64,000 nucleotides of DNA, from the NCBI GenBank assembly GCA_015075635.1, contig JABTUA010000003.1, positions 1 through 64,000 of the forward strand. The letters run 5' to 3'. The notes beneath the pieces were generated by a model. It was given only the letters and a program-made list of their open reading frames with translations. It made no database searches and was not told where the DNA came from. Positions within the stretch are counted from its first letter, which is position 1; each line of letters opens with the position of its first letter. Below, one piece after another: positions 32,053-53,717 of this stretch. The translations under genes and the position numbers were made by a program. Source of the stretch: Polyangiaceae bacterium. Its GTDB lineage: Bacteria > Myxococcota_A > Polyangia > Polyangiales > Polyangiaceae.

Positions 32053-32922
32053 ATGCGCTTCCGGACGTTGTTCCTCACGGCTGGGCTCGGAGTGCTGAGC
32101 GCGTGTGGCAGCGCCAGCGATCAGGGGCTCAAGGGCGGTAGCAGCTACGGGCAAGGTGGTAGCGGCGCCGGTGGCAGCGGCGGCGCGACGGGTGGCGAAG
32201 CCGGCGGTGGCGCTCCGAGCGGCGGCGCCCCGTCTGGTGGAGCGCCGTCTGGCGGAGCGCCGAGCGGTGGTGGAGCGCCCGGTGGTGGCGGCGCTCCGAG
32301 CGGCGGTGCCCCGAGCGGCGGTGCCCCGTCTGGTGGAGCGCCGAGTGGTGGTGGAGCGCCGAGCGGCGGTGGAGCGCCGAGTGGCGGTGGAGCGCCGAGT
32401 GGTGGTGGAGCGCCGAGTGGTGGTGGAGCGCCGGGTGGTGGCGGCGCGCCGGGCCTCTGCGTGGGGCACTGCGGCAGCTCGAGCCCGCAGCCGGGCCCGA
32501 CCGGCAATTGCTACTGCGACGCGCAGTGCGTGGCGCAGAACGACTGCTGTCCCGGTTACAAGGATGCTTGCGCGTCGGGTCAAGTGGCCTGCGGCGCCGA
32601 TCAGTGCGAGCTCGGCTCGGGCGAGCGCTGCTGCCACAAGTACGGGAGCGGGAGCTGGAGCTCCGCTTGCCAGCCCCAGTCGCAGGCGTGCTCGGGGATC
32701 GCGACCTCGAACTGCGACGGTCCGGAGGACTGCCCGGGTCAGGTGTGCTGCGGCAAGGTCGCGAACAACTACCTCAGCAGCATGACTTGTGAGGCGGCCT
32801 CGGCCTGCCAGTACAGCAGCGGCTACCGGGTGATCTGCGGCGCCTCGGGCCAGTGCCCGTCGGGCTACGTGTGCAAGACCTTGTCCTCACCGCCGGGTTA
32901 CAAGTACTGCGGCGTGCCCTGA
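32053..32922 (+). CDS. Gly/Ala/Pro-repeat lipoprotein with somatomedin-B-like Cys cluster
   Basis: 289 residues. Lipobox VLSAC. Residues about 35-135 are tandem GGAPSGG/GGGAPSGG repeats. After that comes CYCDAQCVAQNDCCPGYKDA, matching the somatomedin-B (SMB) pattern C-x-C-D-x2-C-x4-D-C-C-x-x-Y-x2-x-C. Further Cys-rich segments follow (CGADQCELGSGERCCHKYG, CPGQVCCGK, CQYSSGYRVICG, CPSGYVCKT). SMB domains are small disulfide knots best known from animals, where they mediate protein-protein contact. A long, length-variable stalk with a disulfide head implies an adhesin-like surface protein. The SMB match is by motif only. Confidence 0.8.
   Translation: MRFRTLFLTAGLGVLSACGSASDQGLKGGSSYGQGGSGAGGSGGATGGEAGGGAPSGGAPSGGAPSGGAPSGGGAPGGGGAPSGGAPSGGAPSGGAPSGGGAPSGGGAPSGGGAPSGGGAPSGGGAPGGGGAPGLCVGHCGSSSPQPGPTGNCYCDAQCVAQNDCCPGYKDACASGQVACGADQCELGSGERCCHKYGSGSWSSACQPQSQACSGIATSNCDGPEDCPGQVCCGKVANNYLSSMTCEAASACQYSSGYRVICGASGQCPSGYVCKTLSSPPGYKYCGVP
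32209..32455 (+). repeat. Coding tandem repeat (GGAPSGG stalk)
   Basis: Repeats of 12-15 bp of the form GGCGGTGGAGCGCCGAGT with minor variants, in frame with the lipoprotein. Not CRISPR: no spacers, translation is maintained. Prone to slippage. Confidence 0.8.
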
Positions 32923-32974: not shown

Positions 32975-35900
32975 TCACAGCTCCTTGAGCAGCGCCAGGA
33001 GGGCCCGCGCCTCTTCGCCGTCGGTGACCTCGACCAGCGCGCGGTTCACCTCGCACACGGCGTGAGCGGCCAGCACCGCGAGCGCACCCGAGTCTTGGCT
33101 GCCCGCGCGGAGCAGCTGACTGGCGGGCGCGGTGTTCGGGCTCAAGAGCAGCCGCTTGCCGTCTTCGTCGTAGCGCAGCGCGCGCTTGCTGCGGGTGGTC
33201 GCCACGCTCTCGACCGGGCCCCCGGTCAGCCCGAGGCCGAGCACCAGCGCGAGCAGCGCGCGATGCTCCGGCGCGCTGGACTCCACTGGAGCCGCACCGG
33301 TCAGGCTCCTGGTCAGCGCCTTGGTGAAGCGCTCCCACCAGGACGGCCCTTCGCTGATCGCCTCGAGGTCCGGGGGCGCGAGGTCCCGAGGCGCCTCGAT
33401 GGGCTCCGGCGGTGCGAGGTTTCGCGCGCCGGTCACCTCGCCCAGCGAGCGAAGGACGCCAGTCGGCGCGCGCGCGGCGAGCACCCGGACCAGCGCGGAG
33501 CCCTCCGGCAGGAAGAAGCGGGGCATCCCGGCGGGGAAGGCACCCTCCGAGAAGCCACGCCCGTCGCTGGTCCAGAGCGCACCGGCTCGCGCGAGCTCCG
33601 CGAGGACGCTGGCGACCTCGAGCGGGGATCCATCCGCGGCCACGAGCGCCGGAGCGGGTACGTCGAGCCCCAACAGGCGAAGCGACAGCGCGTGCTCGTC
33701 CAGGGTCGGCGTCTCCACGCCTCGCGAGCGCGCGTCGCGGACGAGGTCGGCGGCGACGCGGACACCGAACTCGTTCAACGAATCCCAGGTCTCCGAGAGC
33801 GTCTCCAGGTTGGAGAGTGTGGTCGCGATGTCCAGGGCGATGGCGTTCTTGCCTTCCGGAGCGCCGCCCTCCCAGCGCACGAGCAGGTCTCCCTCCAGCG
33901 GTAGGGCCGTGCCCAGGTGGGCGGCGTCGAGCCGGGCCTCGAGCGCGCGAACCATCGGGGCGGCGCGTTCGCCCATGTACACGCGCACCTTCGGCGCCTT
34001 TGGGAACGTCGTCCCGAGCCAGAGGCAGCCGGTGACGCGGAAGCCCCCGGCGGGCTCGTCCTCGAGCCAGCGGGCCGCGAGCGCGGCGCTCGGAGCGAAG
34101 GTACGCTCCAGCGCCAGACGCGCGACGTCGCGCGCGAGCCGGGCCAGGGGCGGCAGCACGTCGCGATCCGCCGGGCCCTCGAAGAAGCGATCCGGCACGA
34201 CGGAGTCGTCGTTCAGCGCCATCACGAGCGGCCAGCCCTCGCCGTCGGCCAGCTTGCAGAGCGGACGGCGCTCCACGAAGAGCGTGCCGCCGCGCGCGTC
34301 GGCTCGGGCTGGCGAGAGCACGCCGACCTCGCCGCTCACGCCCTCGGTCCGCACCGGCGCCGTGACGAAGCAGGCGGTGCGTTGCTCGGCGGTGAGCATC
34401 ACGGACGACAGCTGCGGAGCCGTGCGCCGGCGCTCCGCCTCCCGCGTCCGCTCGATCCGCCAGTCCACCTTGACCAGCTCGACTCCGCCGCGCAGAGCGG
34501 CGGCCTCCTGCTCCGAGAGCAGCAGCGTCGGGCGCTTCGCCGGTGGAAACGGCGGCTCGAGGGTGGTGTAGAGCCAGCGCGCCTCCGCCACCAGCCCGCC
34601 CAGGCTGTGCCAGTAGCCGCCGGTGTCCTCGAACACGGCCGCGGCGGCGAGCGAGTTCTCGTCGCGGAGCTCCGGGTGCAGGCAGAGCGCGCGTCGCGTG
34701 GCGTGACGCACGAAGGGCGGCAGCGAGTCGAGCGCGGCGGCCGCTCGCACCAAGAGTCGCCGGGCCGCGGCCTCGAGCTCCTGCGTCAGACGTGCCCGCA
34801 CCGCTCGGAGCTCGATGGCATCGACCCGCGCCACCGCCCGGAGCGGACACGACAGGTCCACTTCGAAGCTCTCGCTGCGGCCGTCGAGCAAGAGCACGCT
34901 CACGCTGCTGCTCGGCCCGCGCGTGAGCTCGAGCTCGCCATCGCCGGACGTCACGCCGAGCTCCCCGAGAGGCGCGCGCAGCGCCGGGTGGACCGGCACG
35001 CCGTCGAGCTTCGGTGCAGCCGCGGCTCCGCCGCCCCTCTGGCGTTGGAGGGCGGCGAGCGCTTGGCTCACGTCGGCGAGCTCGTAGCCGTGGCGGCCGA
35101 GCAGCGCGGTGAGCTGCGCGCCGAGATCGCCAGGCGGGAGGAACGCCACCGGCTGGTCGAGCTCCGACGGACGCTCCGCCGAGGCCAGCCACTCCGGGTA
35201 GCGTTCGGAGCCGAACAGGAGGCGGAGGCCGTTCGCCGCGAGCTCGCCGAGGGCGGCGCTACCGCCCTGGACCGTCGGGAAACGCAAGTGCGGTCCCTGG
35301 AAGAGCAGGCGCACGAGCTCGCCGGCGCCCAGATCGTGCAGCGCCAGACACAGGGCGAGCGCCCTGCCGTCCGAGAGCAGCAGGCCCTGCCGAGCGAGCG
35401 CCTGCAAGAGATCGAAGGACGCCTCGCGCAACATGCTGCCCACGCGTCCCAGCCCAGCTTCGCTGGGCGCCGAGAAGGCGACGAAGTCCGAAGCGCGTGT
35501 GGAGCTGACGTTCGCGACGATCGGCAGCCCGACCTGGCTCGGCCCGAGCAAGTGGATCGGTCGCCCCGCGAAGCAAAGGCTCACCCAGCCGACCCCGGGC
35601 GACAGCCCTGCGGGCGGGAGCGCCACCGCGACCTCGAGCTCGCCGAGGAGCTCCGCCGCTGGCCGCGCCGGGACGTGCTGGACCAGGTCACCAGAAGCGT
35701 GGCGCGTGTCCAGATCGCGGATCTCGCGCGCCGGGCTCGCCAGGAGCTGCTGCTTCTGGAGCTCCGAGAGAGCGCGCTCGCGGCGCTGGCCCAGCTCCGG
35801 AGCGCCGCTCACGGCCCGCGGGAAGAGCCGCGTCAAGAGGTCGCGCTCGCGCTCGCTGCGTACGAGCAGAGGCTGCCAGTCGCCCGTCGAGAAACCCGGC

Positions 35901-38596
35901 GCGGCGTCGAGCAACGGCACGCTCTCGCCGTGTCGCGCGGCAATCGACGCGATGGACCGCGCGCATGGCGCCCCTCTGTCGTCGAGCGAGCACAAGATCG
36001 GCAGCTTCTCGATGCGCTCGAGCAGCTGGCGCTGCTGAGCGTCGGTGGGGCGCTCCGGCTTCCCTGCACGCCCGGCGACGCGGGCGCGTAGGTTCAGCGC
36101 GCGTCCGAGCAAGCACAGGACGAGCGCGAGATCTTCGCCGGCCAGCGGCGACACCAGACCCAGGGCTCGTTGCGCTTTCAGATCGCCCTCCAGCGCGTCT
36201 ACCAGGCGCTCGACGAAGCGCTGCTCGAACCAGGACGGGAGGCGCTTCGGTTTGTAGTGGATGCCGTTCCAGGCGGCGTTCGGCACGGTCGCGGGATCGT
36301 CCATGGCCACGATCAGCGAGCTCAATCCGTCGTCGCGCGGGGTGCATGACAGAGCGACGCTCCGATGATGCTCGATGCTCGCTGCGAACACGGCCGGCGC
36401 GACGACCACGAGCGCACCTTCGCGCTCGAACCAGAGCTTCGCCGAGAGCGGGCTCAGCCCCTGGCGCACACGCTCGTCGGTGACGGCGCGCATCAGCGCC
36501 GCGCGGCGTCCTTCCGGCGTGTCCGTTCGCAGCGCGGCGTCGTCGTAGGGGATGCGCTCGACCTTGCCGTCCAAGAGCGCGAGGATGGCCTCCGTCTCCA
36601 CGCCGCCGACGATGACCACCGGGCGTCCGTCGGCGGCGGGTCGAGCGGGCGCGTCCCTGAGACGCGAGGCCACGCACAGCGCCTTGGTCTTCTCGGCGTA
36701 GGCAGCCAGGCTCGCTAGGCTCACGTAATCGCCGGCGACGCTGGGATAGATCGGCGCGCGATACAGCCGGACGAAGTCCCGCTGGAAGCGCTTCGCGAGC
36801 GGGGCGTTCTGACCGAGGCGAGCCGGCACGACGCTGTAGGCCGCGACCGCGTTGCGCAGCACCAGCTCGAGGGCGGCTCGCTCGGGCGCGGGCAGCGTCT
36901 CGAGCCGCTCCGCCGCGCGGTCCGCGATGCCGATGGCCGCGAGCGTCACGGCGTGCAAGGCCTGATTCAGTCGCGCGTCGCGCTCCACGCCGTCGTAGTC
37001 GAAGCGCGGCCGCAGCGCGCTCGGCCAGGCGATGGCCGCGTCGAACGCCAACGGACAGAAGCTCGGCTCGACGGGGATCGCCTCGAGCATGCGCTCTTCG
37101 ACGAAGACCCGGAGCAAGGACGGGCGGGTCGCGCCCGCCGGCAGCGGGGCGAGCAGCACCACCTCCCCGTGCAAACCCTGGGTGGTCCCCGAAGCGGTCG
37201 AGAAACTCTGCCGGAGGAGCTCGGCAGCCACCGGCGGCACCCGGGGCTCTCCCGGCGCGTGCGCCAAGAAGCGCTGGCGGCGTGCCGCGCCTTCCCGCGC
37301 GCGCTTCACCAGGCGCGCGGCGTCCTCGACGTCCATGTCGTCGAGCATTCGCTCCACGAAGTATCCGCGGAGCCACACCACGTCGGAGAGCCAGGGCGCG
37401 AGCTCCTCGGGCAGGTCCTCCTTGCTCCTCCAGACCCGCACCGGACGGCTCGAGAGCACCCGCCCGACCGAGACGCGCCCGCCGCCCGGAGAGTCGAACA
37501 GCGGCAGGTCGAACAGCGCGCGCACCTCGGGGTCGAGCTGGTGCCTGGCGCGGAGCGCTGCCGTCGCCAAGCACACCAGAGTGCCGAGCGAGGTGCGCCA
37601 GGCTTGCTCGGTGAGCGCCGGGGCCTCCACCCCCTCGGGCAGCGCTTCCCTCTGGGCGCGCGCCACCAACCCGGCGAGGAGCTTGCGAAAGGCGGCCTCG
37701 GCGGCCGGCAGGAGCTCGCGCGCCAGGGGCGAGTCTTCGCGCAGCGCCGAGCGAGATGCGTTGGTCGGCAGCTCGTCGGCATCGACGACCACGCGCACCG
37801 GCGCGGCCAGCCCTTCGGTGGCGCCCAGGCCGAGCAGGGGCGTCCAGCTCAGGGTCAAGAGGCGTACGCCGCGCTCCATCACGTCGATGCGGCACGGCGC
37901 GCCGGGCGCGCGGAGCTCCACGGCCGCGCGTCGCGCGAGCGGCAAGGTGAAGGGCACGCGAGCGAGGAGCGGGGGCTCCGGTTTGCGCGGCGCGGGACTG
38001 CCACCACACGAGAGCGCCAGCGGCGACTCGGCGGTGTGCTCGATCAAGAGCGCGACCTCGACCGGCACGCTGCTCGACACTGCGCGCTTGAGCACGTCGA
38101 GCCCCAGGCGCTTCTTGACGTGGACGTGAGTGCCGCGGGTGAACGCGTCCCTGGGCGGACTGCAACTCTTCGCCTGGAGCCCGAGGGGCTTGTCGCTCTC
38201 GTCGGCGAACAGCTCGGGGGTGAAGCGCACGGCGCACGCAGCGGCGTCGTCCGTGCTGGTCACGGTGACCGCTTCGGCGCCCAGGCCGAGCGCGGCGTTC
38301 ACCCCCAAGGCCAGCGAGCGCAGCGGCGCCGCGCGCTCGTCCTCGGCGTCGCTCAGCGCAAAGTCGAGCAAGCGCGCGAGCCGCTCGCCGGGCAAGGCCG
38401 GGCCGTCGAACGCGAACGCCACCTCGTCCGCGTCCCAGCTCACGTTCATCGCGCCGGCGCCCAGCGCGATGGCGGCGCGTGCGAGCTCGAGCGAGTAGCC
38501 ATGCAGATCCACGAGCAAGTGCTCGCGGAGCTTGGCGCGGGCGCGGCGTGCGTCCACGCGGATCGAGCCGCGCAGCACGACCCGCCGGCCGCTCAC
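32975..38596 (-). CDS. Giant protein (1,873 aa) with degenerate HSP90-like GHKL N-terminus
   Basis: 1,873 residues, ATGA overlap with the upstream HSP90-like gene, so the two are translated together. Residues about 25-130 align by eye with the N-domain of that partner, but key ATP residues are gone. The N-box ELxxN is ELARAAIALG (no Asn), the DxGxGM box is FDGPAL (Asp lost), and the glycine lid reads LALGVNAALG. Near residue 265, VRVVVDADELPTNASRSALR matches the middle-domain strand of the partner (VRVKISSSKLKHTLSRDNVR), where HSP90 has a catalytic Arg. The remaining 1,500 residues are alpha/beta with several GEVxLL...LxVxxExRxL-type modules (about 480, 1430 and a weaker one). No signal, TM or enzyme motif seen. 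Not recognised; a multi-module pseudo-HSP90 scaffold is my best description. Confidence 0.85.
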   Translation of the reverse strand: MSGRRVVLRGSIRVDARRARAKLREHLLVDLHGYSLELARAAIALGAGAMNVSWDADEVAFAFDGPALPGERLARLLDFALSDAEDERAAPLRSLALGVNAALGLGAEAVTVTSTDDAAACAVRFTPELFADESDKPLGLQAKSCSPPRDAFTRGTHVHVKKRLGLDVLKRAVSSSVPVEVALLIEHTAESPLALSCGGSPAPRKPEPPLLARVPFTLPLARRAAVELRAPGAPCRIDVMERGVRLLTLSWTPLLGLGATEGLAAPVRVVVDADELPTNASRSALREDSPLARELLPAAEAAFRKLLAGLVARAQREALPEGVEAPALTEQAWRTSLGTLVCLATAALRARHQLDPEVRALFDLPLFDSPGGGRVSVGRVLSSRPVRVWRSKEDLPEELAPWLSDVVWLRGYFVERMLDDMDVEDAARLVKRAREGAARRQRFLAHAPGEPRVPPVAAELLRQSFSTASGTTQGLHGEVVLLAPLPAGATRPSLLRVFVEERMLEAIPVEPSFCPLAFDAAIAWPSALRPRFDYDGVERDARLNQALHAVTLAAIGIADRAAERLETLPAPERAALELVLRNAVAAYSVVPARLGQNAPLAKRFQRDFVRLYRAPIYPSVAGDYVSLASLAAYAEKTKALCVASRLRDAPARPAADGRPVVIVGGVETEAILALLDGKVERIPYDDAALRTDTPEGRRAALMRAVTDERVRQGLSPLSAKLWFEREGALVVVAPAVFAASIEHHRSVALSCTPRDDGLSSLIVAMDDPATVPNAAWNGIHYKPKRLPSWFEQRFVERLVDALEGDLKAQRALGLVSPLAGEDLALVLCLLGRALNLRARVAGRAGKPERPTDAQQRQLLERIEKLPILCSLDDRGAPCARSIASIAARHGESVPLLDAAPGFSTGDWQPLLVRSERERDLLTRLFPRAVSGAPELGQRRERALSELQKQQLLASPAREIRDLDTRHASGDLVQHVPARPAAELLGELEVAVALPPAGLSPGVGWVSLCFAGRPIHLLGPSQVGLPIVANVSSTRASDFVAFSAPSEAGLGRVGSMLREASFDLLQALARQGLLLSDGRALALCLALHDLGAGELVRLLFQGPHLRFPTVQGGSAALGELAANGLRLLFGSERYPEWLASAERPSELDQPVAFLPPGDLGAQLTALLGRHGYELADVSQALAALQRQRGGGAAAAPKLDGVPVHPALRAPLGELGVTSGDGELELTRGPSSSVSVLLLDGRSESFEVDLSCPLRAVARVDAIELRAVRARLTQELEAAARRLLVRAAAALDSLPPFVRHATRRALCLHPELRDENSLAAAAVFEDTGGYWHSLGGLVAEARWLYTTLEPPFPPAKRPTLLLSEQEAAALRGGVELVKVDWRIERTREAERRRTAPQLSSVMLTAEQRTACFVTAPVRTEGVSGEVGVLSPARADARGGTLFVERRPLCKLADGEGWPLVMALNDDSVVPDRFFEGPADRDVLPPLARLARDVARLALERTFAPSAALAARWLEDEPAGGFRVTGCLWLGTTFPKAPKVRVYMGERAAPMVRALEARLDAAHLGTALPLEGDLLVRWEGGAPEGKNAIALDIATTLSNLETLSETWDSLNEFGVRVAADLVRDARSRGVETPTLDEHALSLRLLGLDVPAPALVAADGSPLEVASVLAELARAGALWTSDGRGFSEGAFPAGMPRFFLPEGSALVRVLAARAPTGVLRSLGEVTGARNLAPPEPIEAPRDLAPPDLEAISEGPSWWERFTKALTRSLTGAAPVESSAPEHRALLALVLGLGLTGGPVESVATTRSKRALRYDEDGKRLLLSPNTAPASQLLRAGSQDSGALAVLAAHAVCEVNRALVEVTDGEEARALLALLKEL

Positions 38597-40302
38597 CCCA
38601 TACCTCCGGCGTAGTCCTTGGCCAGGGCGTCGTTGACCCGCGCCTCGAGCGGGCCGCGGCGCGCCAGGAGCAGCATCCGCGCGAGCAGCTGTGCCGTGGC
38701 GCGGAGCCGGCGCTTGGCTCGATCACGCGCGACTCTCACGGGCTCGGTGCGGCAGTCGAGCAGGAGCACCGCCCCGCGGCCCCAGCGCTGGGTGGCGCGC
38801 GTGGCTGCTTCCACCGAGACGATGCCGTGGGTGGGCGCGCGGGCGAGCACCAGGTCGTGAGGAGCCGCGCCGTAGGCTCGCGCGAGCGTCACGCGTTCGA
38901 CCACCGTGCCGCTGACGCCGATGCAGCGCCGGACCTCCTCGAGCAGGGCCAAATCCGTGGCGGAGAGCTCGCCGGGCGCGAGCTCGGCGACCAGCATGTG
39001 GCGCTCGTAGGCGGGCTCGACGCGGCGCCCGCCGCCGCCGCGCAGCGCGGCCAGGCGCCGCACCACGTCGGCGTGCGGACAGAGCACGACCGGACGCCCC
39101 GTGGCGGCGAACGCCGCGCCGAGCGCGTCGGGCTCGGCCACCGTCAAGATGGGAGCGCGCCAGGGCGTGCGCGCGGCGATGTCTTTCGCCGACATCGCCC
39201 GCTGGTCGGCGATCGGGCTCGCTAGCGGGAACCACGTTCGGCTCGCACCGAGCGGGGCGGCGTCGCTGCCCGCCGCCGCGAGCAGCGCCAGGTAGAGCTT
39301 CGGGCTGTCGCCGGCCGCGACTGCCTCCGCCTGCGCTCTCAGCGCCTCTTCCACCGCGCCGGGCAGGCTTCTTCGTGCCAGCTCCCGAGCGCGCTCGAGC
39401 AGATCGTCGAAGGCCTGCTCGCGGCGCACGTTGTCGCGGGACAGCGTGTGCTTCAGCTTCGAGCTCGAGATCTTGACCCGAAGGCCCCCGAGTCCGGGAA
39501 ACTCCTCGGCGCTGGTCTCGAACAGCGTCAGGCCGCGATTGTAGAAGCCCGTGAACGAAGTGGCGTGCTCGTATGCCAGCGCGTGTGGTTCCGGCGGCAA
39601 GTGCTCGGCGCCCACGCCGGGCCCGAGCACGATGCTGTCCTCCCCGTCTACCTCGCTGACACTCACCGCGGCGTGGACCTGGAGCGGCGTGTCGAGCTGG
39701 GTGCGCGACGACCCCTGCGGGTTCGCGTAGTCCGTCACCGAGAGCCAGATGGGCACCCGGGCGTGCCGGCACCAGCGCAGGAGGCTCGCGCGCACTTGGC
39801 CCGCGTGCTCGTCGAATGCGCTCGACTCCATGGTCTGCGTCAGGGTCACGCTGGTACCCGAGAGCGGTCGCGGCGGGATCTCCTCGACGACGTAGGAGTG
39901 GTCGCGCTGGATGGTGGCTCGCCAGGCGCCGCCGTCGCGCCAGGTATCCACGATCACCGCGTCCGGGTCGATGGCCAAGACCGAGATGAAGCCGACGCCG
40001 TATTTCCCGATCATCGAGCCGTCGCCCTCCTTCGAGGACGAGAACAGCGTGAGCAGGGCGCTCTCGATGATCTCCGGCGTCATGCCAGACCCGCTGTCGG
40101 TGACCCGCGTGCGCGTGTCGCCGTCCGCGCTGCGGATCAGGTCCACCTCGATGCGCGTGGTGCCGGCGTCCATGCTGTTCTGCACGAGCTCGCGCAGGAA
40201 CGCGTAGGGGTCGGCGAACTGCCGCACCATCTCCGAGACCAGCCCCGGCTTGTCCCCGTCGCGCGGCGCGGGCCGGTCCTTGCGGGCGCGATAGGGGCTC
40301 AC
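38593..40302 (-). CDS. HSP90-like GHKL ATPase
   Basis: 569 residues from GTG 40302 (VSPYRARKDRP); the frame continues upstream but without a plausible start. The Bergerat ATP site is intact: FLRELVQNSMDAG (N-box, Asn42), TDSGSGMTPEI (G1, Asp69), IGKYGVGFISV (G2 lid), LSGTSVTLTQ (G3). A middle-domain-like part ends in SKLKHTLSRDNVRREQAFDD, with the Arg expected to contact ATP gamma-phosphate. HtpG itself is about 620 residues with a C-terminal dimer domain; here the C-terminal 250 residues differ (Ala-rich, many Arg). So it is an HtpG relative rather than HtpG. Operon partner: the giant protein just downstream. Confidence 0.88.
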   Translation of the reverse strand: MSPYRARKDRPAPRDGDKPGLVSEMVRQFADPYAFLRELVQNSMDAGTTRIEVDLIRSADGDTRTRVTDSGSGMTPEIIESALLTLFSSSKEGDGSMIGKYGVGFISVLAIDPDAVIVDTWRDGGAWRATIQRDHSYVVEEIPPRPLSGTSVTLTQTMESSAFDEHAGQVRASLLRWCRHARVPIWLSVTDYANPQGSSRTQLDTPLQVHAAVSVSEVDGEDSIVLGPGVGAEHLPPEPHALAYEHATSFTGFYNRGLTLFETSAEEFPGLGGLRVKISSSKLKHTLSRDNVRREQAFDDLLERARELARRSLPGAVEEALRAQAEAVAAGDSPKLYLALLAAAGSDAAPLGASRTWFPLASPIADQRAMSAKDIAARTPWRAPILTVAEPDALGAAFAATGRPVVLCPHADVVRRLAALRGGGGRRVEPAYERHMLVAELAPGELSATDLALLEEVRRCIGVSGTVVERVTLARAYGAAPHDLVLARAPTHGIVSVEAATRATQRWGRGAVLLLDCRTEPVRVARDRAKRRLRATAQLLARMLLLARRGPLEARVNDALAKDYAGGMG

Positions 40303-40481: not shown

Positions 40482-41957
40482 ATGACCCACGGAACATCTG
40501 CGCCTGGTTGGCGCGCGGCCGTCGTTCTCGCCGCGCTCACCCTTCCGGCCTGCGGCGGCAAAGGTCCCGAGCACGCCAAGAGCGATCACAGCGGCCCGGC
40601 CAAGGAGAGCAAGTCCACCGCCAAGGCGCGCGAGAAGGTGGCGATCACCGTCTACAACCAGAACTTCGGCCTGGTGCGGGAGATCCGCAAGCTCGATCTC
40701 GGGGAAGGCAAGGTGAGCCTGGAGTACCGGGACGTGTCGGCGCACATCCAGCCGGAGACGGTGCACATCAAGTCGCTGGAGGGCGAGGACGCGCTGGCGG
40801 TGCTGGAGCAGAACTACCGCTACGACCTGCTCAGCCCGCAGAAGCTGCTCGAGAAGTACGTGGACAAGAAGATCAAGGTCTACCGCTACAACGAGAAGCT
40901 CGGCCGCGAAGAGATGAAGGAGGCCAAGGTGCTGGCGGTGGAGCAGGGCACCGTGCTGGAGATCGACGGCGAGGTGACCTACGGCTTCCCAGGGCGCTTC
41001 GCCTTCCCGGAGGTGCCGGCGAACCTGATCGCGAAGCCCTCCCTGGTGTGGTTGCTCGGCAGCAAACGGGCGCAGCAGCGGGTGGAGGTCAGCTACCTGA
41101 GCCAGAACCTGAACTGGGTGGCGGACTACGTGATGGTGGTGGGCGCCGACGACAAGGTCGGCGACCTGAACGGCTGGGTGACGCTGACGAACCAGAGCGG
41201 CACGGACTACGAGAACGCCGAGCTGAAGCTGGTGGCCGGTGACGTGCAACGCGTGATGCCGCCGGCGAGCCCCGCGCCCGGGTACTACGCGCAGGCGGAG
41301 GCCTCCTCCCGGCCCCGCGAGCAGTTCAAAGAAGAGGGCTTCTTCGAGTACCACCTGTACACGCTCCAGCGACCGACGACGCTGCTGGACAAGGAGCAGA
41401 AGCAGGTGACCTTGCTGGAGGGTCACGACATCGGCATCGACAAGAAGCTGATCTTCTGGGGCGCCGAGTACTACTACCGGGGCAACTACGGGCAGGTGGT
41501 CAGTAACCAGAAGGTGGGCGTGTATATCGACATCAAGAACAGCGAGAAGAACCACCTGGGCATGCCGCTGCCGAAGGGCACGGTGCGGGTCTACAAGGCC
41601 GACAAGAGCGGGGCCAAGCAGTTCATCGGCGAGGACCGCATCGACCACACGCCGCGGGACGAAGAGATCCGCATCAAGATGGGCGAGGCGTTCGACGTGG
41701 TGGGGGACCGAAAGCAGATGGAGTGGAACGCCATCGGCAGCTGCACGTCGGAGAGCGCGTTCGAAATAGAGCTCCGGAACCACAAGGACACGGCCGAGAA
41801 GGTGGAGATCTACGAGCCCATCGGCGGCGATTGGGAGATGGTGCAGTCGAGCCATCCCCACGAGAAGAAGGACGCGCACACGTTCACGTTCACGGTGGAC
41901 GTACCGTCCCGCGGCAAGACCAAGGTCACTTACCGAGTGAGGGTGCGATGGTGCTGA
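40482..41957 (+). CDS. DUF4139-type lipoprotein, copy 1 (A)
   Basis: 491 residues. Lipoprotein signal ALTLPACGGK (lipobox LPAC), a charged KSDHSGPAKESKSTAKAREK linker, then a beta-rich domain starting VAITVYNQNFGLVREIRKL. GWVTLTNQSGTDYENAELKL followed by VAGDVQRV is the conserved block of DUF4139 proteins. The C-terminal half has KEEGFFEYHLYTLQRPTTL, KQVTLLEGHDIG and a C-terminal VTYRVRVRWC ending on Cys. Envelope-located, function unknown. First gene of a five-gene chain with 10-, 7-, 10- and 7-bp overlaps. The 179-bp upstream region is shared with the divergent HSP90-like gene. Confidence 0.87.
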   Translation: MTHGTSAPGWRAAVVLAALTLPACGGKGPEHAKSDHSGPAKESKSTAKAREKVAITVYNQNFGLVREIRKLDLGEGKVSLEYRDVSAHIQPETVHIKSLEGEDALAVLEQNYRYDLLSPQKLLEKYVDKKIKVYRYNEKLGREEMKEAKVLAVEQGTVLEIDGEVTYGFPGRFAFPEVPANLIAKPSLVWLLGSKRAQQRVEVSYLSQNLNWVADYVMVVGADDKVGDLNGWVTLTNQSGTDYENAELKLVAGDVQRVMPPASPAPGYYAQAEASSRPREQFKEEGFFEYHLYTLQRPTTLLDKEQKQVTLLEGHDIGIDKKLIFWGAEYYYRGNYGQVVSNQKVGVYIDIKNSEKNHLGMPLPKGTVRVYKADKSGAKQFIGEDRIDHTPRDEEIRIKMGEAFDVVGDRKQMEWNAIGSCTSESAFEIELRNHKDTAEKVEIYEPIGGDWEMVQSSHPHEKKDAHTFTFTVDVPSRGKTKVTYRVRVRWC

Positions 41958-43369
41958 AGAGAGTCTTGATCCTGGGCGTGCTCGCCATTACGCCCGCCGC
42001 GCTGGCCGGGCCGAAGAAGGTCTCAGGCAGCGAGCAGCGCAAGGAGGTGAGCATCACCGTCTACAACCAGAACTTCGGTCTGGTGCGCGAGGTGCGGGAG
42101 ATCGACGTCGGCACCGGCACGGTGGACCTGGAGTTCCGGGACGTGGCGGCGAACATCCAGCCGCAGACGGTCTCGATCAAGTCGCTCACCGGCGGAAATT
42201 CGCTGTCCGTGCTGGAGCAGAACTACCGCTACGACCTGCTCACGCCGCAGAAGCTCCTGGAGAAGCACGTCGGCAAGAAGGTGCGGGTCTGGCGCTGGAA
42301 CGAGAAGCTCGGCAAAGACGAGGCGTTCGACGCCGAGGTCCTGAGCGTGGCCGACGGCCAGACGGTGATGAAGATCAACGGCGAGGTCACCTACAACTTC
42401 CCCGGCCGTATCGCCTTCCCCAACGTGCCGGACAACCTGATGGCGAAGCCCACGCTGGTCTGGAAGCTGGACAGCAAGCAGGCAAAGCAGCAGGTCGAGG
42501 CGACGTACCTGACGCAGAACCTGAACTGGCGCAGCGACTACGTGTTCGTGATCAACGACGCGGACACGGCCGGCGATCTGACCGGCTGGGTCACGCTCAC
42601 CAACAACTCCGGCGCCGCCTACAAGAACGCCAAGCTGAAGCTGGTGGCCGGCGACGTGCAGCGAATCAGCGGCGGCGAAGACTACGAGTACGAGCGCGCC
42701 GCCAAGAAGTCCGCAGAAGCGCCGGCGCAGGACCGCTTCAGGGAAGAGAGCTTCTTCGAGTACCACCTGTACACGTTGCAGCAGCCGACGGACGTGCTGG
42801 AGAACGAGCAGAAGCAGGTGACGCTGCTCGAGGCGAAGAACGCCAAGGTGAAGAAGAAGCTCATCTACTACGGGCAGCAGTACTGGTACCGCGGCAAATA
42901 CGGCGAGGTGCAGAAGAACCAGAAGGTCGGCGTGTACCTCGACATCGAGAACGCCAAGGCGAACGGCCTGGGTATCCCGCTGCCGAAGGGTACGGTGCGG
43001 GTCTACAAGGCCGACAAGAGCGGGGCCAAGCAGTTCATCGGCGAGGACCGCATCGACCACACGCCGCGCGACGAGAAGGTCCGCATCAAGATGGGCGAAG
43101 CGTTCGACGTGGTCGGGGACAGGAAGCAGATGGAGTGGCGCACGCTCGGGGTGTGCACCTCGGAGAGCACCTGGGAGATCGAGCTCCGGAACCACAAGGA
43201 CAAGGCGAGTCGGGTGGAGGTCTACGAGCCCATCGGCGGCGACTGGACCATCATCGAGAGCACGCACAAGCACGACAAGAAGGACGTCTTCACCTTCACC
43301 TTCGACGTGGACGTGCCCGCCAACGGCAAGACCAAGATCAAGTACAAAGTGCGGGTGAAGTGGTGCTGA
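41948..43369 (+). CDS. DUF4139-type secreted protein, copy 1 (B)
   Basis: 473 residues. ATG 41948 overlaps the end of A by 10 bp. Signal peptide MVLKRVLILGVLAITPAALA (cleaved after ALA, no lipobox). Same fold as A (VSITVYNQNFGLVREVREID, NNSGAAYKNAKLKLVAGDVQ), but A and B have clearly diverged in the N-terminal half, so the A/B split is older than the duplication. Ends KIKYKVRVKWC, Cys-terminal like A. Probably partners A at the inner leaflet of the outer membrane; inferred from strict pairing. Confidence 0.86.
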   Translation: MVLKRVLILGVLAITPAALAGPKKVSGSEQRKEVSITVYNQNFGLVREVREIDVGTGTVDLEFRDVAANIQPQTVSIKSLTGGNSLSVLEQNYRYDLLTPQKLLEKHVGKKVRVWRWNEKLGKDEAFDAEVLSVADGQTVMKINGEVTYNFPGRIAFPNVPDNLMAKPTLVWKLDSKQAKQQVEATYLTQNLNWRSDYVFVINDADTAGDLTGWVTLTNNSGAAYKNAKLKLVAGDVQRISGGEDYEYERAAKKSAEAPAQDRFREESFFEYHLYTLQQPTDVLENEQKQVTLLEAKNAKVKKKLIYYGQQYWYRGKYGEVQKNQKVGVYLDIENAKANGLGIPLPKGTVRVYKADKSGAKQFIGEDRIDHTPRDEKVRIKMGEAFDVVGDRKQMEWRTLGVCTSESTWEIELRNHKDKASRVEVYEPIGGDWTIIESTHKHDKKDVFTFTFDVDVPANGKTKIKYKVRVKWC

Positions 43370-44817
43370 AGCGGGTGGGCGCGCTGGCCTTCGCGCTCGT
43401 GCTCGCCGCCTGCGGCGGCAAGGGGCCGGAGCACGCCAAGAACCAGGACGGCCCGGCGAAGGACAGCAAGTCGAGCGCGAAGCAGCGCGAGAAGGTCGCC
43501 ATCACCGTCTACAACCAGAACTTCGGGCTGGTGCGGGAGATCCGGAAGCTCGATCTCGGGGAAGGCAAGGTGAGCCTGGAGTACCGGGACGTCTCCGCGC
43601 ACATCCAACCAGAAACGGTTCACATCAAGTCGCTGGACGGCGACGACGCGCTGGCGGTGCTGGAGCAGAACTACCGCTACGACCTGCTCAGCCCGCAGAA
43701 GCTGCTCGAGAAGTACGTCGACAAGAAGATCAAGGTCTACCGCTACAACGAGCAGCTCGGGCGCGAGGAGATGAAGGAGGCCAAGGTGCTGGCGGTGGAG
43801 CAGGGCACCGTGCTCGAGATCGACGGCGAGGTTACCTACGGCTTCCCGGGGCGTTTCGCCTTCCCGGAGGTGCCGGCGAACCTGATCGCGAAGCCCTCGC
43901 TGGTGTGGCTGCTCGGCAGTAAGCGGGCCCAGCAGCGGGTGGAGGTCAGCTACCTGAGCCAGAACCTGAACTGGGTGGCGGACTACGTGATGGTGGTGGG
44001 AGCCGACGACAAGGTCGGCGACCTGAACGGCTGGGTGACGCTGACCAACCAGAGCGGAACGGACTACGAGAACGCCGAGCTGAAGCTGGTGGCCGGCGAC
44101 GTGCAGCGCGTGCAGAGCCAGGTGATGACGCTCGACGAGAGCGGCTTCGGGCCCAACGACGCCACGATTCGCACGCGGCCGAACTTCAAGGAAGAGGGCT
44201 TCTTCGAGTACCACCTGTACACGCTCCAGCGACCGACGACGCTGCTGGACAAGGAGCAGAAGCAGGTGACCTTGCTCGAGGGCCACGACATCGGCATCGA
44301 CAAGAAGCTGATCTTCTGGGGCGCCGAGTACTACTACCGGGGCAACTACGGGCAGGTGGTCTCGAACCAGAAGGTGGGCGTGTATCTCGACATCAAGAAC
44401 AGCGAGAAGAACCACCTGGGCATGCCGCTGCCAAAGGGCACGGTGCGGGTCTACAAGGCGGACAAGAGCGGGGCCAAGCAGTTCATCGGCGAGGACCGCA
44501 TCGACCACACGCCGCGGGACGAAGAGATCCGCATCAAGATGGGCGAGGCGTTCGACGTGGTGGGGGACCGAAAGCAGATGGAGTGGAACGCCATCGGCAG
44601 CTGCACGTCGGAGAGCGCGTTCGAAATAGAGCTCCGGAACCACAAGGACACGGCCGAGAAGGTGGAGCTCTACGAGCCCATCGGCGGCGACTGGGAGATG
44701 GTGCAGTCGAGCCATCCCCACGAGAAGAAGGACGCGCACACGTTCACGTTCACGGTGGACGTACCGTCCCGCGGCAAGACCAAGGTCACTTACCGAGTGA
44801 GGGTGCGATGGTGCTGA
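43363..44817 (+). CDS. DUF4139-type lipoprotein, copy 2 (C)
   Basis: 484 residues from GTG 43363 (overlap 7 bp with B). Lipobox VLAAC, KGPEHAKNQDGPAKDSKSSA linker. Nearly identical to A outside the leader and the linker 44113-44184 (VMTLDESGFGPNDATIRTRP versus MPPASPAPGYYAQAEASSRP in A). That shows either selection on, or fast loss of constraint in, this surface loop. C-terminal VRVRWC as in A. Confidence 0.87.
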   Translation: MLKRVGALAFALVLAACGGKGPEHAKNQDGPAKDSKSSAKQREKVAITVYNQNFGLVREIRKLDLGEGKVSLEYRDVSAHIQPETVHIKSLDGDDALAVLEQNYRYDLLSPQKLLEKYVDKKIKVYRYNEQLGREEMKEAKVLAVEQGTVLEIDGEVTYGFPGRFAFPEVPANLIAKPSLVWLLGSKRAQQRVEVSYLSQNLNWVADYVMVVGADDKVGDLNGWVTLTNQSGTDYENAELKLVAGDVQRVQSQVMTLDESGFGPNDATIRTRPNFKEEGFFEYHLYTLQRPTTLLDKEQKQVTLLEGHDIGIDKKLIFWGAEYYYRGNYGQVVSNQKVGVYLDIKNSEKNHLGMPLPKGTVRVYKADKSGAKQFIGEDRIDHTPRDEEIRIKMGEAFDVVGDRKQMEWNAIGSCTSESAFEIELRNHKDTAEKVELYEPIGGDWEMVQSSHPHEKKDAHTFTFTVDVPSRGKTKVTYRVRVRWC

Positions 44818-46229
44818 AGAAGGTTCTCGTTCTGGCTGTCCTCGTCGTGGCGCCGGCGGCTCTCGCCGGACCGAAGAAGACCTCGGGCAGCGAGCAGCGC
44901 AAGGAGGTGAGCATCACCGTCTACAACCAGAACTTCGGTCTGGTGCGCGAGGTGCGGGAGATCGACGTCGGCACCGGCACGGTGGACCTGGAGTTCCGGG
45001 ACGTGGCGGCGAACATCCAGCCCGAGACGGTCTCGATCAAGTCGCTCACCGGCGGAAATTCGCTGTCCGTGCTGGAGCAGAACTACCGCTACGACCTGCT
45101 CACGCCGCAGAAGCTCCTGGAGAAGCACGTCGGCAAGAAGGTGCGGGTCTGGCGCTGGAACGAGAAGCTCGGCAAGGACGAGGCCTTCGACGCCGAGGTC
45201 TTGAGCGTGGCCGGTGGCCAGACGGTGATGAAGATCAACGGCGAGGTCACCTACAACTTCCCCGGCCGCATCGCCTTCCCCAGCGTGCCGGACAACCTGA
45301 TGGCGAAGCCCACGCTGGTCTGGAAGCTGGACAGCAAGCAGGCCAAGCAGCAGGTCGAGGCGACGTACCTGACGCAGAACCTGAACTGGCGCAGCGACTA
45401 CGTGTTCGTGATCAACGACGCGGACACGGCCGGCGATCTGACCGGCTGGGTCACGCTCACCAACAACTCCGGCGCCGCCTACAAGAACGCCAAGCTGAAG
45501 CTGGTGGCCGGCGACGTGCAGCGGGTCAGCGCCCGGGACGACTACCGCTACCCCACGGGCGGAGCCCGGGCCAAGGCCGAAGAAGGCGCCACCGGGTTCA
45601 AGGAGGAGGGCTTCTTCGAGTACCACCTGTACACGTTGCAGCAGCCGACGGACGTGCTGGAGAACGAGCAGAAGCAGGTGACGTTGCTCGAGGCGAAGAA
45701 CGCCAAGGTGCAGAAGAAGCTCATCTACTACGGGCAGCAGTACTGGTACCGCGGCAAATACGGCGAGGTGCAGAAGAACCAGAAGGTCGGCGTATACCTG
45801 GACATCCAAAACACGAAGCAGAACGGCCTCGGCATGCCGCTACCGAAGGGCACGGTGCGGGTCTACAAGGCCGACAAGAGCGGGGCCAAGCAGTTCATCG
45901 GCGAGGACCACATCGACCACACGCCACGCGACGAGAAGGTCCGCATCAAGATGGGCGAGGCCTTCGACGTGGTCGGGGACAGGAAGCAGATGGAGTGGCG
46001 CACGCTGGGCGTCTGCACCTCGGAGAGCACCTGGGAGATCGAGCTCCGGAACCACAAGGACAAGGCGAGTCGGGTGGAGGTCTACGAGCCGATCGGCGGC
46101 GACTGGACCATCATCGAGAGCACGCACAAGCACGACAAGAAGGACGCCTTCACCTTCACCTTCGACGTGGACGTGCCCGCCAACGGCAAGACCAAGATCA
46201 AGTACAAGGTGCGCGTGAAGTGGTGCTGA
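44808..46229 (+). CDS. DUF4139-type secreted protein, copy 2 (D)
   Basis: 473 residues, same length as B, 10-bp overlap with C. Signal peptide MVLKKVLVLAVLVVAPAALA. Near-identical to B except the linker 45528-45596 (ARDDYRYPTGGARAKAEEGA versus GGEDYEYERAAKKSAEAPAQ) and scattered substitutions. Closes the second duplicated unit. Confidence 0.86.
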   Translation: MVLKKVLVLAVLVVAPAALAGPKKTSGSEQRKEVSITVYNQNFGLVREVREIDVGTGTVDLEFRDVAANIQPETVSIKSLTGGNSLSVLEQNYRYDLLTPQKLLEKHVGKKVRVWRWNEKLGKDEAFDAEVLSVAGGQTVMKINGEVTYNFPGRIAFPSVPDNLMAKPTLVWKLDSKQAKQQVEATYLTQNLNWRSDYVFVINDADTAGDLTGWVTLTNNSGAAYKNAKLKLVAGDVQRVSARDDYRYPTGGARAKAEEGATGFKEEGFFEYHLYTLQQPTDVLENEQKQVTLLEAKNAKVQKKLIYYGQQYWYRGKYGEVQKNQKVGVYLDIQNTKQNGLGMPLPKGTVRVYKADKSGAKQFIGEDHIDHTPRDEKVRIKMGEAFDVVGDRKQMEWRTLGVCTSESTWEIELRNHKDKASRVEVYEPIGGDWTIIESTHKHDKKDAFTFTFDVDVPANGKTKIKYKVRVKWC

Positions 46230-50765: not shown

Positions 50766-53717
50766 ATGGTCAGATTCCCGATTTGGGCCGCAGCCAGCCT
50801 AGGGCTGCTGTTCGCTACTGCTTGTAGCGGCGACGACGGAGGTGCGGGACCCAAGGGCTCGGAAGGGAAACCCTGCACCGTGACGAGCAACGGCGACGGC
50901 ACGTCGACGATCAGCTGCGCGGACGGGACCAAGGTCACCGTCAAGGACGGCCAGCCTGGCGATCCCGGGACGCCTGGCGATCCGGGCGAGGCGGGGCCGC
51001 CCGGTGACCCCGCTGAAGCGGGCGTTTCCTGCACCATCGTGGACAACGGCAACGGCACCAAGACCATCACCTGCTCCGACGGGACGACGGTCACCATCGC
51101 GAGCGCGCTGAAGGACTACGCAGCCCTGTCGACCGACGAGAAGGCCGCCCTCGATCCGACTCTGACGATCACCAAGGTGACCTTCCCGACCGACGGGAAG
51201 CCCGTGATCGACATGAAGATCACCGACAAGATGGGCAACCCGGTCAAGGGCCTCGACGCGGCGACCGCCGGCGCCGGCCTGACCTGGCGGCTGTCGGTGT
51301 TGAAGCTCGTCGCCGGAGGCGCAACCGCCCCGGGCAAGAGCGGGAACGACACCTGGGTGAGCTACATCGCGGCCAACGCGACCAGCTCCGCCAGCACGGA
51401 GTCCGCCGCCGCCGTGACGCCGGCCCCGGCCGGCCAAGGCGCCCTCAAGGACAACGGCGACGGCACGTACACGTACACGTTCGCCAAGAACATCACCGAC
51501 GAGGCCAACGCCGGGACCAAGTACGAAGCCGACAAGACCCACCGCGTGGTCGCCCTGGCCTACAAGAGCGGCAATCCGTTCCGGCCCATGGACGCCTGGC
51601 AGGATCTGATCCCGCAGACCGGCGCCGACGTGTCCGGTCAGAACGACAAGGTCAACGCGGCTTCTTGCATGAACTGCCACTCGGACTGGCGCGCTCCCGC
51701 TCTGGGGACGTCGGCCTTCCACAGCGGCACCCGGTACGAGCCGCACACCTGCGTGGCCTGCCACAACGACCAGCGCCGCTTCACCAGCACCGGTACCGCG
51801 AAGACCGAGCCGGCCATGACCGCCGGCACCAAGGCCGGCACCGTCAAGTGGACCGGCAGCGCCGAGATCATCAACGACGAGTCGGTGATCAACTTCCCAG
51901 TCTTCATCCACAAGATCCACATGGGTCACAAGCTCGGCCTGGTGCCCGACCGCGGCAACGGCAGCGGCGAGTACGCCGCCGTGCAGTACGACGAGGTGAC
52001 CTACCCGCAGGACGTGCGCAACTGCACGAAGTGCCACAACACCGTGGCCAAGGCGGACAACTGGAAGAGCTCGATCAGCCGGCGCGCCTGCGGCGCCTGC
52101 CACGACACCCGCTCCTTCGCCGCCACGCCGCCGTTCGGCCGCGTCGCCCACAGCTTGGGAGCGTACTCGGACGACACGGAGTGCGCCAACTGCCACGGCG
52201 CCGGCAAGGCCAACGCGGTGGACGCGAAGCACGAGCCCATCGACCCGCCGAACACCATCACCACGGGTACGCTGCCGGCCTCGCCGGACGGCCAGTACGT
52301 GATGAACGGTTGGCAGGGCGACAGCTCGGCCCAGGGCTACAAGGCCTGCACCGTGGCCTCGCCGTGCACCTGCACGACGGCCGCGCCGTGTTTGCCCAGC
52401 GCCAACAGCAACGCCGCCTGGATGGCCGCCGCCGGCTACGTGCCGACTGGAGCCGCGAAGATCACCTACGACATCAAGGAAGTCCTGGTGGATGCCACCA
52501 CCAAGAATCCCAAGATCGTCTTCAAGCTGCTCAAGGACGGCACCGACGTCGACTTCGGCACCTACGACGCCACCACCAAGCCGGAGCTCATCACTGGCTT
52601 CGTCGGCTCGCCGAGCGCGTACTTCGCCTGGTCGTTGCCGCAGGACGGCATCACCTCGCCGGCGGACTACAACGCCACCACCAGCGTCTACATCAAGGGC
52701 GTCTGGAACGGCTCGAACACCAACGCGACCCTGACCAAGGACGCGACGACCGGCTACTACACGCTGACCGTCACCAACCTGGCCCTGCCCTCCGTCGCGA
52801 AGATGGTCACCGGTGGCCTCGGCTACACCTACAGCATGTCGAGCACGCAACCGCTCACGCAGGTGGACCTGACCAGCAAGTTCCCGTACAGCGCGGTGAC
52901 CAAGGTCGGCGGCCTGATCGTGCCGGCACCGAACGTCTACAAGGCGGCTACGGGCTACACGGCTCGCCGCGCCATCGTGGAGACGGCTCGCTGCAACAAG
53001 TGCCACGACGGTCTCGGCGTCGCGCCGACCTTCCACAGCGGCCAGCGCAACGACGCACCGACCTGCTCGTTCTGCCACAACCCGAACCGCGCCAATAGCG
53101 GCTGGGCGGTGAACTCCAAGGACATCATCCACTCGATCCACGCCGGCGCGAAGCGCACCGTTCCGTTCACCTGGCACGGCGAGATCAAGGCTTGGGAGGT
53201 CACGTATCCGGGCGTGCTCAACACCTGCACGCAGTGTCACATCGAAGGCACCTACGACTTCAGCGCCAACGCGACGAAGAACGCGCTGCCCAACATGTTG
53301 CACAGCACGGCCGCCACCGGCACCTACAGCGGGACCGCGAACGCACCGGCGACCATCCCGCCGTTCCTCTCGCCGTACGTCACGGCGGGCACGAACTACG
53401 GCAGCAACTACACCACCTCGGGCACCAGGACCGTGGGCTCGCAGAACACCACGACTGGCGTCGTGGCCTGCACCGTGGCCTCGCCCTGCACCTGCACGAC
53501 GGCCGCGCCGTGCAACGCCGAGGACACCACGCTGGTCAACTCGCCCATCACCGCCGCTTGCGGCGCCTGCCACGACTCGGCGATCGCGAAGAAGCACTTC
53601 GCGGACAACGGTGGCTCGCTCTTCAAGCCGCGCGGCACGGCGCTGGCCACGCCAGAAGCCTGCTTGATGTGCCACGGCCCGAGCAAGATCGCGGCCATCG
53701 CGGAGGTTCACAAGTAA
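50766..53717 (+). CDS. OmcA/MtrC-family decaheme c-type cytochrome, outer-membrane lipoprotein
   Basis: 983 residues. Lipobox FATAC. The early region repeats GDGTSTISCADG/GNGTKTITCSDG around a short collagen-like run (PGDPGTPGDPGEAGPPGDP). Ten CXXCH heme motifs sit near residues 301, 329, 420, 442, 473, 743, 767, 821, 932 and 966, i.e. two pentaheme clusters as in MtrC/OmcA. Between them lie beta-sandwich-like stretches (about 560-735). Two copies of a four-Cys element (CTVASPCTCTTAAPC, near 528 and 902) are not heme sites. This family moves electrons across the cell surface to extracellular metals or acceptors. The porin and inner decaheme partners (MtrB, MtrA) are not in the window. Confidence 0.93.
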   Translation: MVRFPIWAAASLGLLFATACSGDDGGAGPKGSEGKPCTVTSNGDGTSTISCADGTKVTVKDGQPGDPGTPGDPGEAGPPGDPAEAGVSCTIVDNGNGTKTITCSDGTTVTIASALKDYAALSTDEKAALDPTLTITKVTFPTDGKPVIDMKITDKMGNPVKGLDAATAGAGLTWRLSVLKLVAGGATAPGKSGNDTWVSYIAANATSSASTESAAAVTPAPAGQGALKDNGDGTYTYTFAKNITDEANAGTKYEADKTHRVVALAYKSGNPFRPMDAWQDLIPQTGADVSGQNDKVNAASCMNCHSDWRAPALGTSAFHSGTRYEPHTCVACHNDQRRFTSTGTAKTEPAMTAGTKAGTVKWTGSAEIINDESVINFPVFIHKIHMGHKLGLVPDRGNGSGEYAAVQYDEVTYPQDVRNCTKCHNTVAKADNWKSSISRRACGACHDTRSFAATPPFGRVAHSLGAYSDDTECANCHGAGKANAVDAKHEPIDPPNTITTGTLPASPDGQYVMNGWQGDSSAQGYKACTVASPCTCTTAAPCLPSANSNAAWMAAAGYVPTGAAKITYDIKEVLVDATTKNPKIVFKLLKDGTDVDFGTYDATTKPELITGFVGSPSAYFAWSLPQDGITSPADYNATTSVYIKGVWNGSNTNATLTKDATTGYYTLTVTNLALPSVAKMVTGGLGYTYSMSSTQPLTQVDLTSKFPYSAVTKVGGLIVPAPNVYKAATGYTARRAIVETARCNKCHDGLGVAPTFHSGQRNDAPTCSFCHNPNRANSGWAVNSKDIIHSIHAGAKRTVPFTWHGEIKAWEVTYPGVLNTCTQCHIEGTYDFSANATKNALPNMLHSTAATGTYSGTANAPATIPPFLSPYVTAGTNYGSNYTTSGTRTVGSQNTTTGVVACTVASPCTCTTAAPCNAEDTTLVNSPITAACGACHDSAIAKKHFADNGGSLFKPRGTALATPEACLMCHGPSKIAAIAEVHK

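Follow-up and report, generated by a model that had tools for sequence, protein, structure and literature searches.

A complete HSP90 and a giant paralogue with a predicted ATP-dead N-domain form a conserved gene pair in myxobacteria and their relatives

Work on HSP90 treats the chaperone as a homodimer with an ATP-binding site in each arm, and engineered half-dead dimers have been used to ask why two active sites are needed. HtpG is a homodimer encoded by a single gene, and proteins of the sacsin family carry repeats of the N-terminal and middle domains (N+M) together with DnaJ and HEPN domains in one chain. Here, we analysed a stretch of 64,000 nucleotides from a Polyangiaceae bacterium (assembly GCA_015075635.1, contig JABTUA010000003.1, positions 1 to 64,000; hereafter the window), in which two overlapping genes, A and B, encode a compact HSP90 and a giant relative of it that seems unable to bind ATP. 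Such pairs occur in many myxobacteria and their relatives, and they suggest a lopsided, two-protein version of a chaperone otherwise known as identical halves. In our view, A and B probably make up a two-component HSP90 chaperone with an ATP-driven A and an ATP-dead B; that the two proteins assemble into a heteromer and act on clients is inferred. The genes are the following:

38593..40302, minus strand: gene A, GTG start, 569 amino acids (aa), defined by the open reading frame (ORF) and homologous starts; compact non-HtpG HSP90 ATPase
32975..38596, minus strand: gene B, GTG start, 1873 aa, defined by the ORF; giant pseudo-HSP90, with a 4-bp overlap with A

The overlap, correctly reported in a preliminary description made from the sequence alone, lies in GGAGGtatgGGTGAgc, where the TGA stop of A overlaps the GTG start of B (inside GGTGAG); GGAGG is found upstream of the start of B. 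Both start sites are consistent with those of relatives, in which A proteins open with 'PYR' and B proteins with 'RG.lRVDA'. Since the gene upstream of A is divergent (start at 40482) and the one downstream of B is convergent (end at 32922), A and B look like a self-contained operon.

Judged by its sequence and its predicted structure, A is a full-length HSP90, with an N-domain, a middle domain that includes the catalytic Arg, and a C-terminal domain, and it looks competent for ATP. Its parts are:

39733..40245, minus strand: N-terminal ATPase domain of A, aa 20-190 (Pfam HATPase_c_3; N-box, G1 and G2 intact)
39313..39732, minus strand: HSP90-type middle domain of A, aa 191-330, with the catalytic-loop Arg289 (model and profile match HSP90)
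38596..39255, minus strand: second alpha/beta domain of A, aa ~350-440, and C-terminal dimerisation-type region, aa ~445-569 (hhalign to HtpG)

A number of results support this assignment. First, the ATP motifs are complete (N-box RELVQNSMDAG, G1 DSGSGM, G2 KEG..IGKYGVGF), and ten key residues (R289 of the middle domain plus E38, N42, D45, D69, G71, G73, G99, G102 and G104) are unchanged in all 51 relatives, in line with the preliminary claim that the 569-residue protein keeps every GHKL ATP motif. Second, a single-sequence search matches Pfam HATPase_c_3 at 3e-13, and the profile of A built from 51 relatives matches residues 10-609 of E. coli HtpG (E 2.5e-18), and TRAP1 too. Third, hhalign aligns A15-533 with HtpG proteins of related genomes (E 1e-27), an alignment that takes in the 'LN..HP.V' part of the C-terminal domain (CTD). 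Fourth, the AlphaFold2 model of A (predicted local distance difference test, pLDDT, 90.6; predicted template modelling score, pTM, 0.87) finds Hsp90/HtpG as its best Foldseek matches (E 1e-23) and HSP90 as its best VIA match, at Z about 22 and near full length; the root-mean-square deviation is large because the arms are set differently. The earlier reading of A as a GHKL/HSP90-like ATPase was therefore right about the ATPase motifs and too narrow for the rest, as the protein is a complete HSP90 homologue. By curated cut-offs, A is neither HtpG (NF003555, 38.5 versus 371 bits; B has no match) nor PRK14083 (NF010683, 47 versus 455 bits; no relative scores above it), and it stays below the sacsin cut-offs as well (25.6 versus 32.8 bits for Pfam SACS and 46.2 versus 50 for NF047352), for which B has no match. 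Two other weak matches to A in the same genome were considered as paralogues and rejected, both being ordinary sensor histidine kinases.

Gene B is, according to profiles and a structural model, an ancient paralogue of A with an ATP-dead N-domain:

38027..38557, minus strand: pseudo-ATPase N-domain of B, aa 14-190 (hhalign to A, E 8.7e-12; motif counts; AlphaFold2 model; N-box Asn replaced by Ala, G1 Asp by an aromatic residue, glycine lid lost)

A search with the sequence of B alone draws a blank in Pfam, NCBIfam and the PDB and yields one chance match in PADLOC, and the profile of B 1-960 finds only chance matches in the PDB. The relationship of B to HSP90 is visible only by profile-profile comparison and structure. 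The former aligns A27-413 with B26-414 (P 97%, E 1e-10). In the latter, an AlphaFold2 model of B over aa 1-960 (pLDDT 88, pTM 0.60), the part from aa 5 to 427 matches the N and M domains of HSP90 (VIA, Z about 17; Foldseek, E about 1e-11), so that the structural likeness of the giant N-terminus, on which the preliminary description had staked its reading, is borne out by the model; the VIA rows cover aa 5-427, and modules 2-6, listed below, are thus without a fold match of their own.

The losses in the ATP site are shared by all the B proteins compared across the phylum. The Mg-binding Asn of the N-box is missing in 43/43 (Ala in 39) and the pocket Asp of G1 is likewise missing in all 43 (W, F or Y in 39), and in G2 the first two of the three glycines are replaced, the first mostly by Arg and the second always by Ala. 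The N-box Glu is kept in 38/43. Together with the alignment to A, these counts substantiate the claim that B starts with a copy of the domains of A from which the N-box Asn, the G1 Asp and the glycine lid are gone. Since the changes are common to B proteins phylum-wide, the loss of the ATP motifs seems old and shared and not a recent decay. That B is a decaying, functionless duplicate of A fused to junk modules, a notion to which the lost motifs would lend themselves, is hardly credible, because the reading frame is open and conserved across the phylum, 40 columns are invariant among 18 order-level homologues, A96 is invariant in 43/43 B proteins, which shows that B has invariants of its own, and B has diverged together with A (see below).

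To characterise the remainder of B, it was cut into six segments (200-450, 440-700, 700-960, 960-1200, 1200-1400 and 1400-1640), which were compared pairwise by hhalign with reversed and column-shuffled controls. All six align to one and the same region of A, about 248-420, which covers the middle domain and the domain that follows, and among themselves they reach E values as low as 1e-10; the controls against A gave E 0.02 to 0.85 when reversed and never below 0.14 when column-shuffled, and all these segment E-values come from single comparisons and are to be read as P-values. By these alignments, B past its N-domain is mostly a tandem array of middle-domain-like modules, about six in number, and ends in a C-terminal segment like that of HSP90:

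37277..38026, minus strand: module 1 of B, aa 191-440 (hhalign to A 248-418, E 2.5e-6; AlphaFold2 model, Z about 17; LPTNASR Arg282 kept)
36497..37234, minus strand: module 2 of B, aa ~455-700 (hhalign to A 280-422, E 9.6e-6; to module 5, E 1e-10)
35762..36454, minus strand: module 3 of B, aa ~715-945 (to A, E 1.5e-3; to module 2, E 4e-5; to module 6, E 7e-6)
34997..35614, minus strand: module 4 of B, aa ~995-1200 (to modules 2 and 5, E about 1e-5 and 5e-6; to A, 0.012)
34412..34969, minus strand: module 5 of B, aa ~1210-1395 (to A, E 2.4e-4; to module 1, E 7e-8)
33677..34369, minus strand: module 6 of B, aa ~1410-1640, its C-terminal part uncertain (to module 2, E 1e-5; to module 3, E 5e-5; to A, 0.013)
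32978..33229, minus strand: HSP90-like C-terminal segment of B, aa ~1790-1873 (hhalign to A CTD 509-544, E 3.8e-6; to HtpG CTD, E 5.5e-4)

The stretch of about 1,500 residues that had been described as unknown modules consists for the most part of repeats of the HSP90 middle-domain module, together with the HSP90-like C-terminal segment. B proteins range in length from about 720 to 2,030 aa, and the short ones of distant families (about 950-1,300 aa) have the same layout with weaker repeat support.

The distribution of the two genes ties them closely together. In a profile survey of 284 genomes sampled from one phylum, all 51 genomes with a strong A also have B, none has a strong A only, and two have B only (Fisher P about 1e-54, phylogeny ignored). 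Among 52 loci with a complete A, which were selected by A and of which five are close Polyangium-type loci, B is directly downstream (start within about 100 bp) in 47, and the pair is thus conserved as neighbours, the second point on which the preliminary description was open to refutation. The evolutionary distances of A and B correlate (mirror-tree, r 0.89). Swapping partners among copies from the same genome lowers the correlation, and only 0.35% of 2,000 swaps reach the observed value, so that each A is tied to its own B. On this sequence evidence, A and B are kept and inherited together and have co-diverged as partners. A role as a general replacement of HtpG was rejected, as HtpG is kept in 38/51 genomes with A/B. 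Within the order of the window, 10/17 of the A/B-carrying genomes lack HtpG, and canonical HtpG was not found in the genome of the window or in two other genomes of its genus (G000, G001 and G002, all at least 94% complete). Gene A may therefore be the only HSP90 of this genus.

How might such a pair work? The middle domain of HSP90 is the region that binds many clients. We propose that A and B would join through their related C-terminal segments, and possibly also through their N-domains; the product would be either a lopsided HSP90 or a dimer of A that docks to B. Binding of ATP to A would close the clamp, as in other HSP90s, and B, unable to bind ATP and keeping the fold of an ATPase arm, would serve as a fixed regulatory arm, its row of middle-domain modules offering a long surface to hold large or multi-domain clients. 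The task of the pair would be to fold or remodel proteins of the cytosol, and not to defend against phages. TRAP1 dimers in which one arm is dead for hydrolysis keep closure and reopen slowly (PMC5550277), and by analogy the dead B could make a slow-release clamp. In its most specific form, the proposal is of a natural, obligate asymmetric HSP90, in which an ATP-driven protomer pairs with an ATP-dead giant protomer whose multiplied middle domain is a multi-site client-binding arm; about this form we are rather more doubtful than confident.

Several observations weigh against these proposals. Five of the 52 A loci have no adjacent B. At L094 (2158-14001) a single A is followed by three tandem B genes and at L104 (2050-11314) by two, an arrangement that speaks more for a shared motor than for a strict 1:1 dimer. 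Modules 4 and 6 have only weak matches to A (E about 0.01) and rest mainly on their likeness to other modules, the C-terminal match of B spans only about 36-50 residues, and the middle-domain Arg of B (Arg282) is conserved only within the order of the window (24/24). The loci with several B genes would also suit another arrangement, in which A functions as HSP90 homodimers ordinarily do and B, a large co-chaperone or scaffold in its own right, docks to the A dimer, the HSP90 ancestry of B being only historical. TPR proteins serve HSP90 and offer an analogy for B as a docking helper, and A retains a C-terminal domain of its own. Furthermore, the combination of an HSP90 with a big helper recurs in other phyla: PRK14083/NF010683, the 'HSP90 family protein' of Streptomyces, Pseudomonas and Xanthomonas, is a non-HtpG HSP90 of a size like that of A and is followed by a large gene, and in Xanthomonas, Pseudomonas and Streptomyces replicons (L042, L043 and L044) a non-HtpG HSP90, NF010683 or near it, directly precedes a large TPR-repeat protein (764-1039 aa). 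Because of this adjacency, a helper gene next to a non-HtpG HSP90 may be a wider theme. These large partners were considered as relatives of B and rejected, since they are TPR proteins without similarity to it. Yet a mere scaffold would have no need of the dead N-domain that B conserves or of its HSP90-like C-terminal segment, and we regard the co-chaperone arrangement as unlikely, if worth keeping in mind.

The preliminary description had also entertained a defence system, and this option did not hold up. A part for the pair in anti-phage defence or another conflict, as a relative of Tiamat-type or GHKL defence proteins, might be suggested by the PADLOC TmtA profiles, which match A weakly over the ATPase domain (E 1.7e-6), and by the patchy distribution, with several copies in some genomes. 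However, these matches span about 80 residues of profiles of 1,100-1,650 aa, and neither B, its chance match aside, nor the pair as a system is recognised by PADLOC. Among 81 neighbour genes at other A/B loci, which are metabolic and regulatory, no family occurs more than three times and no recurrent defence family was found; PADLOC picks out two generic kinases only. No B was seen on plasmids, and the matches to A in viral contigs and phages are all short and confined to the ATPase domain (21 in a viral scan with A). Since neither recurrent neighbours nor defence islands nor mobile carriage turned up, nothing here supports the defence reading, which we consider improbable. Near a few A/B pairs there are two adjoining, unannotated genes (about 350 and 335 aa), upstream of A at L092, L102 and L103 and beyond B at L097 and L101; the ones tested had no Pfam match.

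In the window itself, the neighbours of A and B include DUF4139 genes, a FabH-type synthase, OmpA and a multihaem cytochrome. Three of the surrounding regions deserve a mention:

40482-46229, plus strand: four tandem DUF4139 genes, the first and third and the second and fourth being 93% identical, hence a two-gene unit that was recently duplicated
50766-53717, plus strand: 983-aa multihaem cytochrome with MtrC/MtrF-type domains, which suggests extracellular electron transfer
32053-32922, plus strand: 289-aa ORF matching the Somatomedin B domain, which is mostly animal (E 2.4e-7)

If an active HSP90 and a dead giant sibling are indeed partners throughout a phylum, the question of the two active sites could be put to the test in a native system. 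The array of middle-domain modules points to a way to scale up client binding, parallel to that of sacsin with a different architecture. Should the obligate asymmetric form of the chaperone prove true, this would be the first HSP90 with its motor and its client platform divided by nature between two proteins.

The A/B pair fits none of HtpG, PRK14083, sacsin and Tiamat. Its account as an active and an inactive HSP90-type partner, best read as one machine and distinct from housekeeping HtpG, agrees with the preliminary description, whose further remark that this is not a described system holds for the libraries and papers searched; no description of the pair was found in that literature, which was covered in part. 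HtpG (NF003555) has the same N-M-C order, ATP motifs and middle-domain Arg as A; it is the product of a single gene, whereas at the A locus a giant dead paralogue is encoded next door. Tiamat (TmtA) resembles the pair in being a large family with a GHKL ATPase domain, but the likeness is confined to that part of A and does not extend to B. The eukaryotic sacsin is, like B, a giant of repeated HSP90-derived domains. It has the N+M unit three times, with ATP sites apparently intact and without the HSP90 C-terminal domain (PMC9880540, PMC3629688). In contrast, B has a single dead N-domain, about six repeated M modules, no Pfam domain, an HSP90-like C-terminal segment and a separate ATPase alongside, and it falls outside the sacsin family. 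A functional parallel to what we propose is found in the engineered one-sided TRAP1/Hsp90 heterodimers, which combine an active and an impaired arm. Those are laboratory constructs, whereas the inactive arm of the A/B pair would be natural, ancient and giant.

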